Part shown: positions 38,428 through 41,333 of the stretch, piece by piece
Layout: each line of letters opens with the position of its first letter
Position numbering within the stretch: the first letter of the stretch is position 1
From: Selenomonas sp.
GTDB lineage: Bacteria; Bacillota; Negativicutes; Selenomonadales; Selenomonadaceae
NCBI GenBank assembly: GCA_022482925.1
Contig: JAKVOG010000001.1
Location: 186,001-250,000 of the forward strand
DNA: 64,000 nt
Direction of reading: 5' to 3'
Notes under the pieces: generated by a model
Database searches by the model: none
What the model was told of the DNA's origin: nothing
Seen by the model: the letters and a program-made list of their open reading frames with translations, nothing else
Made by a program: the position numbers and the translations under genes

Positions 38428-39087
38428 TTAACGGTGATCGCTGGCCAGAACGATGGCCGTCACCGACGCGGCTCCACTCTGCCGCAGTTCCCTGGCGCAG
38501 GCGTATAAAGTCGCCCCCGTAGTCATGATATCATCCACCAGCAGAATCCGTTTCCCCGCCAGCGCAGTCCCCTCCTTTACCCGGAATGCCCCTTGCAGAT
38601 TGTGCTGCCGTTCTTCAGCCGATAGCTGATACATGGGACGCGTCGCCCTGGTCCTCAATAATACGTTCTGCATGACAATTCCCCGGGTCTGAAGCCAGTC
38701 CCGGAAAATCAGTTCCGTCTGATTGAAGCCACGCTGCTTTTCCTTTGACTTGTGCAATGGTACAGGAACAGCCAGGCTGACTGATGCCAGCAAAGCTGCC
38801 ACAGCCGGACTCTCCCCCGCCCGGTCCAATAGCGTACGGATATAAGGCAGGCTGCTCCTGCGGCCATGATACTTAAGTCCGCGGATCAGATCCTGTGTGC
38901 CTTCCCGATATACACTAAGCGCCCATGCATTGTCGATCACGACCTGCACAGGCACTGATAATGGCAGACGCTGCGGCTGCAACGCCTTTATGAGGCACTG
39001 CGGACACCAGCTGCCTTTTTCTTCTACATAAGCCCCACACAACGGACAATGCGGTGGGAACATGAAATTCAATATCGCTTTAATCAC
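38428..39087 (-). CDS. comF: ComF-family phosphoribosyltransferase-like protein
   Basis: 219 residues. An N-terminal zinc finger (CPLCG...CPQC) precedes a type-I PRTase domain: AVPVPLHKSKEKQRGFNQTE and PRPP loop ILLVDDIMTTGATLYACARE. ComF/GntX proteins are needed for DNA uptake in Bacillus and Haemophilus; the precise reaction is unknown. Start is GTG at 39087 behind AAGGAG, overlapping the upstream yqeB-like gene by eight bases. Confidence 0.9.
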   Translation of the reverse strand: MIKAILNFMFPPHCPLCGAYVEEKGSWCPQCLIKALQPQRLPLSVPVQVVIDNAWALSVYREGTQDLIRGLKYHGRRSSLPYIRTLLDRAGESPAVAALLASVSLAVPVPLHKSKEKQRGFNQTELIFRDWLQTRGIVMQNVLLRTRATRPMYQLSAEERQHNLQGAFRVKEGTALAGKRILLVDDIMTTGATLYACARELRQSGAASVTAIVLASDHR

Positions 39088-39922
39088 GATGGAAGAATCT
39101 CCTTCTGGGACGCTTCGTATCCCAGGCCATCACAGCCTCAAGGACCGATCCCGCAATGCAACGTGCTTTATCCGAAATCGTAAAGCATTCTTCCTGCCCC
39201 ATCGTCGGATGGATATCCGCGACCTTCTGCCCCTTGACCACCTGACTCCCGGTATGCAACGCACCGCGCAGCACTCCATCAATCGTCGCCTTGAGTTCAA
39301 TGATCTGTCCATCCTTCGTATGTAAATGCGCCAGCGATTCCCCGCGCTTCACCATCAGGGAAATACTGCGCAGCATCTCCAGTTGCCCATCCTCAGGCGC
39401 AAAAAGCAGATGCTCCACATTGCGGGCATACCCCACAGTGCTGTTCTCGATATCCTGCTCACGCGCGGAAAAGCCTTCGTAGATCAGCCGGCCAAGATTA
39501 TGACCACGCATCGTCTCTACAACGACATCCACATCGCGGCCGGCACAAAACCCCGGTCCCAGACCAATCGTATGATCAGCCATGTCCCGCCTGGTGCCTT
39601 TATTCTGATGTGCCGTAATCGCATCAACCAGTATCTGAGGCCGCAGAGCCCGCACACACTTCGCTGCCGGATCCTCCAGCATAACCAGTTCCCCGTTCTT
39701 CAGTCGCTTCTTCGCGTCTTCGAGGTTCTGCGCCCGATAACAGGTCACACGCTCTACCGTCGCCTCACCGCGATACATGGCATCTGAGAACGTGACCCGC
39801 CGCCTCGTAGCCGATGGTCTCGCCTGTTCCAGGATCAACACGCGGAAGCCGGACCGATACAAAGTATGGACAATCCCGCTGGCCAGCTCGCCACCGCTGC
39901 GTACGACAATCAGATGTTTCAT
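39080..39922 (-). CDS. yqeB: YqeB-like selenium-dependent molybdenum hydroxylase accessory protein
   Basis: 280 residues. VVRSGGELASGIVHTLYRSG is a Rossmann-type start and IGLGPGFCAGRDVDVVVETM RGHNLGRLIY is characteristic of the EF2563/YqeB family, which is genetically tied to selenium-dependent molybdenum hydroxylases. The C-terminal half has a lipoyl/biotin-like fold (GVLRGALHTGSQVVKGQKVA). No xdh, selD or molybdopterin gene is in the window, so here it is an orphan coupled to comF. AAGGAG precedes the ATG. Confidence 0.82.
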   Translation of the reverse strand: MKHLIVVRSGGELASGIVHTLYRSGFRVLILEQARPSATRRRVTFSDAMYRGEATVERVTCYRAQNLEDAKKRLKNGELVMLEDPAAKCVRALRPQILVDAITAHQNKGTRRDMADHTIGLGPGFCAGRDVDVVVETMRGHNLGRLIYEGFSAREQDIENSTVGYARNVEHLLFAPEDGQLEMLRSISLMVKRGESLAHLHTKDGQIIELKATIDGVLRGALHTGSQVVKGQKVADIHPTMGQEECFTISDKARCIAGSVLEAVMAWDTKRPRRRFFHRD

Positions 39923-40024
39923 AGCATCTTCTCCTTTTCTATTCGTCTTTCTTTATTATACTATAGAATCGGATTCATGAAAGACAATAATTTCATCTCG
40001 TCTTAATTTTATTATTCCAAAGTA

Positions 40025-40053
40025 TTGCAATTATCTGAACACTATGCTATTAT
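40025..40053 (+). promoter_or_regulatory. Promoter of the large noncoding RNA
   Basis: TTGCAA (40025-40030), 17-nt spacer ending TGC, TATTAT (40048-40053), an extended -10 arrangement. Start predicted near 40060. Confidence 0.75.
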
Positions 40054-40059
40054 ATAGAT

Positions 40060-40651
40060 GTAAAGAAGAGATAGATAAATAAACCATCAGATCAGTAGTC
40101 CTGGAGGTCGAAAGTCTGGAAGGTATTTATCCAGCCGAAACAGGCTCTCTTCAACAAACTTACATATCTCGTAATTACGAAAGGATGTGAGTGTTTATTG
40201 AAGATATCGCTATGCAGAAGTTCTTTCGGAACTGACTAGCAAGTGCATTGGTGGAGCAAGCGAATATCCATGAGGCGAGGATGCGTCGTGATGATGACCA
40301 AATGGTCGCCAGTCGTACGCAAAGCTATTGGAAGTCAGGCGCACAGCGTCAGGTAACGAAAGAATCAAATGCAGCCCTGGGTAAATCTTTACAGATCATC
40401 TAAGAATCAATCGAGACTTTAGGAACCCCTATCGTTATCGATAACGGCAAGATGACACTTAGCAAGATGTGCACAGATCGTGATTGACTATCACAAGGTT
40501 TCAGCTGAACGTGAATATACGTGTTTAAAACGTGTAGTAAGATTCCTGCTCGAGAGGGGATCTTGCAGACAAGTGAATAAGAAGGACAACTTATATCTAT
40601 GTTTATCAACGATTAAAGCCGACCCGCAATCAAGATTGTGAGTCGGCTTTT
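40060..40651 (+). ncRNA. Candidate large structured noncoding RNA, about 590 nt, family not recognised
   Basis: The stretch lies between yqeB and a radical SAM gene and has no credible protein frame, yet it has a strong promoter and a terminator on the same strand. Many helices can be drawn: CTGGA/TCCAG (40116-40134), AGTTC/GAACT (40219-40233), GACC-AAAT-GGTC (40296-40307), CGTTA-TCGA-TAACG (40433-40446), AAGATTCC/GGGGATCTT (40539-40564). A long-range pair, CTGACT/AGTCAG with AGC/GCT (40232-40240 with 40324-40338), encloses a multi-hairpin domain. Size is like ROOL, GOLLD or OLE RNAs, but I cannot match it to any. RNase P RNA and tmRNA signatures are absent. A 54-codon frame at about 40235-40400 lacks a ribosome site and is the main alternative. 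Confidence 0.62.
40615..40651 (+). terminator. Terminator of the large noncoding RNA
   Basis: AAAGCCGACCCGCAA pairs with TTGTGAGTCGGCTTTT (one mismatch), loop TCAAGA, ending in T4. Also usable by the convergent radical SAM gene. Confidence 0.85.
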
Positions 40652-40673
40652 ACTATGCCCTTATTTATAAGAA

Positions 40674-41333
40674 TTACGAGTCCTCATACTCACGAACCCG
40701 CAACGTCAGACCTCTTTCCTTACAGATTGCCTGGCACCTGGCAATCTCATCCGGGCCTTCGACCTTATCGACGATCGTCAGAACGACATTCGGAACATAC
40801 TTCTTGCTATGCTCCGCAAAAGCCAGCATGGCTTCATAGGACTGAAGCCCGTATTTGGCCCGGGTCAGCTCATAATAGCGCTCCGCATTTGAAGCATTGA
40901 GACTGATGGAAATCGTATCCAGGATTCCTTTGAAATCCACAGAGATCTCACGACCGTATTCCAGCTCGCCCAGCCCATTCGTATTGAGACGAGTCGGCAT
41001 GCCGGGATGCTGTTCCTTGACATAACGCATCAACTCAAGCAGGACATCCAGACGCATGGTCGGTTCCCCAAAGCCACAGAACACGACCTCCTGGATATAG
41101 GACCATGGCACATCATCCAGCGCAGCCTTGAATTCAGCCAGCGTCGGTTTATTCTTCAGCCAGAGCGACGACTCTTCTGCCATCTTCTTCATATTGCGCA
41201 GGCAGAATGTGCAGGCGCAGTTGCATTCATTCGTAATATTGACATAGAGATTCCGCCTGCCTGCCGGCTGGATCTTCAGGCTCTCCGATAACGGCAGGTA
41301 ACGCCCGCCTTTATGCGTTGCATAAACTAACAT
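40674..41333 (-). CDS. TatD-linked-type radical SAM protein
   Basis: 219 residues. NITNECNCACTFCLRN carries the CxxxCxxC cluster motif; VVFCGFGEPTMRLDVLLELM is the GGE-like SAM-binding block (here GFGEPT); RLNTNGLGELEYGREI and SISLNASNAERYYELTR follow. The overall pattern resembles the small radical SAM proteins found next to TatD nucleases, but no tatD is adjacent. Substrate unknown. It directly follows the pyridoxal kinase gene (no gap). Confidence 0.8.
   Translation of the reverse strand: MLVYATHKGGRYLPLSESLKIQPAGRRNLYVNITNECNCACTFCLRNMKKMAEESSLWLKNKPTLAEFKAALDDVPWSYIQEVVFCGFGEPTMRLDVLLELMRYVKEQHPGMPTRLNTNGLGELEYGREISVDFKGILDTISISLNASNAERYYELTRAKYGLQSYEAMLAFAEHSKKYVPNVVLTIVDKVEGPDEIARCQAICKERGLTLRVREYEDS

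Follow-up and report, generated by a model that had tools for sequence, protein, structure and literature searches.

The window, a 64,000-nt stretch of Selenomonas sp. DNA taken as a whole, carries at 40025-40651 the sequence of a large structured RNA that has no match in Rfam 15, and sequence comparison supports its standing as an unrecorded RNA class of the Selenomonas family. The initial annotation had read the region as a large structured noncoding transcript with its own promoter and terminator; homologues and helix-level covariation support the structured transcript, which would be expressed from these signals. 'Noncoding' is probably partly wrong, because two micro-ORFs are conserved within it, and the RNA is thus probably not purely noncoding.

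Locus, distribution and inheritance

All features of the RNA lie on the plus strand. Its promoter (40025-40053) consists of a -35 element TTGCAA (40025-40030), a 17-nt spacer and a TG-extended -10 element TATTAT (40048-40053), as first annotated, and the RNA is expected to start near 40060. An intrinsic terminator hairpin (40615-40650) followed by T (element 40615-40651), which had also been called, closes the locus; the stop codon of the second micro-ORF, ORF2, shares bases with the hairpin foot. Both signals are conserved across homologues. They enclose about 590 nt of folded sequence; the predicted fold of 40058-40652 has an energy of -177.9 kcal/mol (z -3.82), and none of 100 shuffles folded as well. 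Around the promoter (40020-40045 and its homologues), ATTGCAAT in the -35 region and TCTGA in the spacer are kept in several genera, a conservation that exceeds what a promoter needs and perhaps marks a regulator site.

The RNA is flanked by two minus-strand genes, a yqeB-like gene (39080-39922), from which it points away, and a radical SAM gene (40674-41333), towards which it points; both names derive from the translations. In many of 26 loci, whose neighbours were read by a script that also lists spurious ORFs, comF, yqeB or the radical SAM gene adjoins the RNA, and the chromosomal neighbourhood is unchanged in many relatives. The convergent radical SAM gene is next downstream in 7 of the 26, and the next gene varies between genera, with co-oriented downstream neighbours being exceptional (ilvB in locus L116 and an S2-like protein in L112). 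Because the neighbouring genes differ, we do not take the RNA as a leader.

At gathering scores, a cmscan of the window returned only one SRP RNA and three tRNAs, with no match at the RNA. The Rfam search that the initial annotation had proposed was negative for the region, with only two unrelated families listed for 39950-40720 at E 10, and six homologous loci searched against Rfam at E 1 gave nothing at the RNA. The annotation had left the choice between an unrecorded member of the OLE, ROOL or GOLLD kind and a new class. Homologues, helix-level covariation and the negative Rfam result favour the unrecorded class; membership of OLE, ROOL or GOLLD is not supported and was rejected on the covariance-model scans, which gave no match to any of the three at E 10. 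No such RNA is named in the literature searched, including passages of PMC11109978, PMC8632094 and PMC6429828; the candidates of PMC8040213 may include it.

By blastn, 20 of 22 genus genomes contain the RNA, with all 15 good genomes positive, and 45 of 151 family genomes gave a match. At most 44 of these 45 count, because the match in genome G089 is a T-box-like leader; by our own reading, this sequence (L150, G089:C37) precedes a glycyl-tRNA synthetase-like gene. Covariance model R1 matched 50 of 189 family genomes (13 of 30 genera) and R2 matched 70 of 189 (19 of 30 genera), several of the latter proving false once the sequences were read. R3 matched 52 of 380 class genomes (14 of 102 genera); about half of the 380 genomes (189) belong to the family, and every match lay within it. 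Reading the sequences one by one, we accepted members in 17 family genera: g1, g3, g4, g6, g9, g11, g12, g15, g16, g38, g43, g44, g45, g46, g47, g48 and g51. All 16 listed genomes of genus g42 were without an R1 match, and the RNA is either lost there or too diverged.

No members were found outside the family with R1 in 200 or R3 in 380 class genomes. On reading, the R2 matches outside the family (G274, G310 and G347) were gene ends or other sequence with a terminator. Within the family, the R2 matches in G164, G022, G120, G084:C56 and G173 were dropped as gene ends or terminators, as was G102:C10; G150, G182, G084:C51, G013:C42, G002:C6, G004:C70 and G018:C17:51474 were left out of the member count. 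Among 26 named contigs carrying the radical SAM gene, 14 had the RNA by blastn within the stretch examined. These 14 include Selenomonas ruminantium ATCC 12561, S. montiformis, S. ruminis and, with a short match, Mitsuokella sp. oral taxon 131.

In most genomes the RNA is single-copy. Another contig of the window's own assembly (L029, G000:C21:17040-17691) holds the same locus with an RNA 97% alike, while two alignments that take in the flanks are 90-91% alike. This locus may well come from a second strain, the stated contamination of the assembly being 4%, and the comparison indicates that the RNA is more constrained than its neighbouring sequence. Searches of 50,697 phage and 72,556 plasmid records gave no match to the RNA. 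The best reading is that it passes vertically with the chromosome in bacteria of the rumen and mouth, of which some are in culture.

Covarying helices and self-complementary tips

Covariation was scored on 41 of 64 aligned sequences, with 18 divergent or short sequences and 5 near-duplicates set aside, against 500 null alignments simulated on their tree with substitutions moved between columns (our own script, not R-scape). A 5' domain (40060-40392) is closed by P1 (40060-40066 with 40386-40392), whose score was reached by 1 of 500 nulls. Within it lie P2 (40074-40081 with 40124-40131), with an upper part extending to 40088-40091 with 40115-40118 (0/500), P3 (40133-40146; 7/500) and P4 (40148-40154 with 40198-40204; 1/500). 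In one g46 locus (L141, genome G091), about 130 extra bases compared with other g46 members occupy the P4 loop before the GGAAAGGATGTGG box.

The core domain (40232-40352), supported by covariation and by counts against shuffled and slid partners, begins with P7, which joins 40232-40236 to 40348-40352 (0/500). The initial annotation had paired 40232-40240 with 40324-40338, and the covarying partner lies instead at 40348-40352. P7 is CTGAC/GTCAG in the window and is exchanged in relatives for CTAGC/GTTAG, CCGG/CCGG and TTGGC/GCCGA; pairing is kept in 98.4% of cells for four of the pairs and in 77.4% for the fifth. Above it follow P8 (40243-40246 with 40341-40344), P8b (40267-40270 with 40329-40332), P9 (40283-40286 with 40317-40320; just 70% paired) and P10 (40296-40299 with 40304-40307).

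No null reached the scores of P2, upper P2, P7, P8b, P9, P10, the stem of hairpin C, the terminator or the tip of hairpin B, the last being read as pairing between molecules. The scores of P1, P3, P4, P8, P11b and the stem of hairpin B were reached by 1-7 of 500; these helices rest on kept pairing, because they have no excess of double changes. Such an excess was clear (0-1 of 500) for P2, upper P2, P10, the hairpin C stem and the terminator, and moderate for P7 (13/500), P9 (23), the hairpin B tip (26) and P8b (43). Pairing was found in 93.3% of cells at the 3' end, against at most 46.9% with slid partners (24 sequences), and in 84.9% of cells in the core, against 39.6% (31 sequences). A blind test of all column pairs, which had almost no power, gave one significant pair, in the terminator, so the structural support stands at the level of helices.

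Several hairpins fared less well. The CGTTATCGATAACG stem of the initial annotation has little support (41/500), and a pairing to 40410-40414 is in competition with it. Two further hairpins, GTTC/GAAC (40220-40232; 183/500) and GTGAT/ATCAC (40480-40494; 68/500), are unsupported. P2a (86), a hairpin reading of 40433-40446 (41), P5 (26) and P11 (24) were weak, with the counts giving nulls out of 500.

Towards the 3' end stand two hairpins with self-complementary ends. Hairpin B, GTTTCAGCTGAAC (40498-40510), has the tip AGCT, which remains self-complementary when it changes: AGCT in most genera, GGCC in g3, CGCG or CTAG in g46, GATC in g51 and TCGA in L136, with the wobble-complementary GGCT in L111 and CTGG in L135. 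Hairpin C (40537-40566) corresponds to the hairpin first placed at 40539-40564, which is real and covaries; it has 10 pairs, and 0 of 500 nulls reached its score. Its loop contains CTCGAG (40549-40554), and in relatives CTTAAG or TCGCGA, these three covering most sequences; g51 has TCGCGG, and the loop is not palindromic in the ten g9 sequences or in g4. The tip test for hairpin C is weak, with 14 of 500 nulls reaching its score and slid partners pairing up to 0.89. In g9 (L125-L134), the 3' domain holds other palindromes: GCGCGC between short arms and, in most, GAGATCTC, besides TTCAGCTGAA.

Palindromes were also counted in 28 chosen, related sequences, using the last match of the anchor box in each, which is inexact in some. 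The 3' domains held 63 palindromes of at least 8 nt against 26.6 ± 5.1 in shuffles, and 30 of at least 10 nt against 7.1 ± 2.6. The corresponding counts in the 5' part were 33 against 31.4 ± 5.8 and, somewhat raised, 16 against 8.1 ± 2.8. Since adjacent loop bases are unable to pair within one chain, the switching of palindromes points to pairing between two copies, and we infer that the long forms pair with themselves through their hairpin tips. Short forms in g15 (L118-L120) and g48 (L148) are without hairpins B and C.

Two conserved micro-ORFs

The initial annotation saw no convincing reading frame. This holds for a protein gene, and two conserved micro-ORFs were missed. ORF1 (40198-40239) follows a nearly invariant Shine-Dalgarno-like box, GAAAGGA (40179-40185), and comprises a TTG start, 13 codons and TAG, its 3' part forming a strand of P7 and its stop lying just beyond. 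The start codon, TTG, is a weak one and in most sequences stands 12 nt from the box; of 50 distinct sequences having the TTG, 49 give an ORF1 of 12-14 codons. Where one-base shifts occur (the L019 group and L040), a stop is still found in frame. Other ORF1 frames were rejected for scatter, another open frame ranging from 2 to 38. The stop sits in a conserved motif having stops in two frames, and 13 of 66 sequences (L061, L105, seven of g46, two of g6 and two of g45) lack ORF1 or have it in altered form.

ORF2 (40599-40616) reads ATG TTT ATC AAC GAT TAA, with a Shine-Dalgarno sequence, GAAGGA (40581-40586), 12 nt before the ATG and four codons between start and stop. Among 51 distinct sequences, 40 have 5 codons, four have 4 and three have 6, so that 47 fall within 4-6; one each has 2, 7, 8 and 10, and the 7-codon ORF of L108 is not credible. 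L108 and L119 break the rule. The start is ATG, or TTG in g6; TTG was permitted in the count only in g6 and g12, after the sequences had been seen. In L125, the start is possibly one codon earlier. Stops are TAA (35), TAG (9) and TGA (7), the other two frames scatter, and in 61 of 66 sequences the last base of the stop lies 1-5 nt into the terminator stem. In a control of 196 terminator-like sites (loci L105-L147), 10 such arrangements were found, 8 of them this same RNA. A TAA can be supplied by the A-tract of the terminator, so stronger evidence for ORF2 comes from the exchange of stop codons, which is seen within g9 as well.

Much of the conservation in these counts is common by descent. 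Genus g48, which was used in no model and matched R3 at just E 0.002, has an ORF1 of 12 codons and, at the terminator foot, an ORF2 of 5 (ATG GTC ATT CAC GTG TAA). The peptide sequences of both ORFs vary, and varying peptides at fixed positions suggest that the presence of a ribosome at the site is what matters.

The most substantial rival, possible yet short of probable, is a purely noncoding ornate RNA of the OLE, ROOL or GOLLD kind that forms homo-oligomers, its ORFs being by-products of conserved sequence beside helices. The size, the many covarying helices, the loss of ORF1 in some genera and the palindrome switching, which resembles that reported for the L9.3 tip of OLE in the relevant part of PMC12286853, all fit this. 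However, the ORF2 frame is kept despite its changing stop codon and length, also within g9, and ORF2 persists in short forms that have no palindromic hairpins. An RNA that binds 30S subunits or titrates ribosomes, in which the Shine-Dalgarno boxes are what counts and the ORFs arise by chance, is unlikely: it would account for the near-invariance of GAAAGGA and the second box before ORF2, but stop codons and frames are conserved too.

We consider a leader-peptide attenuator, in which ribosomes on a micro-ORF control terminator read-through into a downstream gene, still less likely. A short ORF before alternative helices and a terminator, with a stop codon at the terminator foot, has the expected layout, but the next gene in the window is convergent, and across the 26 loci it differs between genera and is co-oriented only exceptionally. 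The remains of a protein gene, or intergenic sequence conserved by no function, to which the intergenic position and a single listed Pfam match below its cut-off (Cryptochrome_C, E 0.0067) might point, is highly improbable for a conserved, covarying, single-copy element of 17 genera, and the decayed gene was rejected on the absence of any Pfam match above cut-off among its ten stop-free frames of 35-70 amino acids.

Proposed mechanism and known systems

We give an even chance to the reading that this is an undescribed trans-acting structured RNA on whose two micro-ORFs ribosomes load and whose long forms self-pair; its expression, translation, pairing and function are all inferred. The RNA would be transcribed from its own promoter and end at its own terminator. 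Ribosomes would load at the two Shine-Dalgarno sites and translate ORF1 (12-14 codons) and ORF2 (about 5), whose peptides would hardly matter. The strand closing the core domain is part of ORF1, whose translation would have to unwind P4 and free the P7 strand. A ribosome finishing ORF2 would cover the terminator foot. By opening or holding P4, P7 and the terminator foot, ribosomes would make the fold and lifetime of the RNA track translation. They could protect or expose the RNA, protection being the role proposed for a minigene in the part of PMC8708949 that treats it. Having two self-complementary tips, two copies of the long forms should pair.

A more elaborate version, which we put forward tentatively and regard as doubtful, is a new kind of self-pairing RNA device in which ribosomes set the fold by occupying the two micro-ORFs, each of which ends at the foot of a key helix. 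P7 would bring the end of ORF1 near the start of ORF2 in the short forms, and a ribosome might cross the folded core between the ORFs.

Like OLE (RF01071), the Selenomonas RNA is a single chromosomal RNA of about 600 nt. The tip of OLE hairpin L9.3 switches between the palindromes GGCC, GAUC and AGCU, which is argued in the passages concerned of PMC12286853 to reflect pairing between two copies. The hairpin B tips of the Selenomonas RNA (AGCT, GGCC, CGCG, CTAG, GATC and TCGA) are a likeness to this, not a sign of membership. The two differ in that no OLE covariance-model match occurs in this region of the window at E 10, and in that no ORFs are described for OLE in those passages of PMC12286853. 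An OLE model search found nothing in 31 genomes, with control genomes likewise silent. The protein OapA (DUF1646) goes with OLE RNA; DUF1646 was found in none of 31 genomes and in none of 14 controls.

ROOL and GOLLD are large ornate RNAs whose copies assemble via loop contacts, and phages and prophages are named as the carriers of ROOL (both from the same parts of PMC12286853). The Selenomonas RNA differs from both in having no Rfam match, and from ROOL in its absence from the phage and plasmid records searched. Bacterial minigenes, such as mg2 of axe-txe, are ORFs of two to six codons in leaders, for which translation rather than the peptide has the role (in the portion of PMC8708949 on minigenes). 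ORF2 resembles them in its Shine-Dalgarno sequence, start, few codons and stop, with 4-6 codons in 47 of 51 sequences, and would be translated likewise. Minigenes precede a regulated gene, whereas here a terminator follows and there is no fixed downstream gene. In the ribosome shunting of plant pararetroviruses, a short ORF terminates at the foot of a large hairpin. This is an analogy only, as shunting is eukaryotic and leads to translation of a coding ORF downstream.

Only a few large ornate RNAs are known from bacteria, and for most of them no function is known. Palindrome-switching tips together with conserved micro-ORFs and no fixed downstream gene form a combination not found in the classes compared here, and the Selenomonas RNA opens to direct test the idea that RNAs of this sort act in pairs and together with ribosomes.
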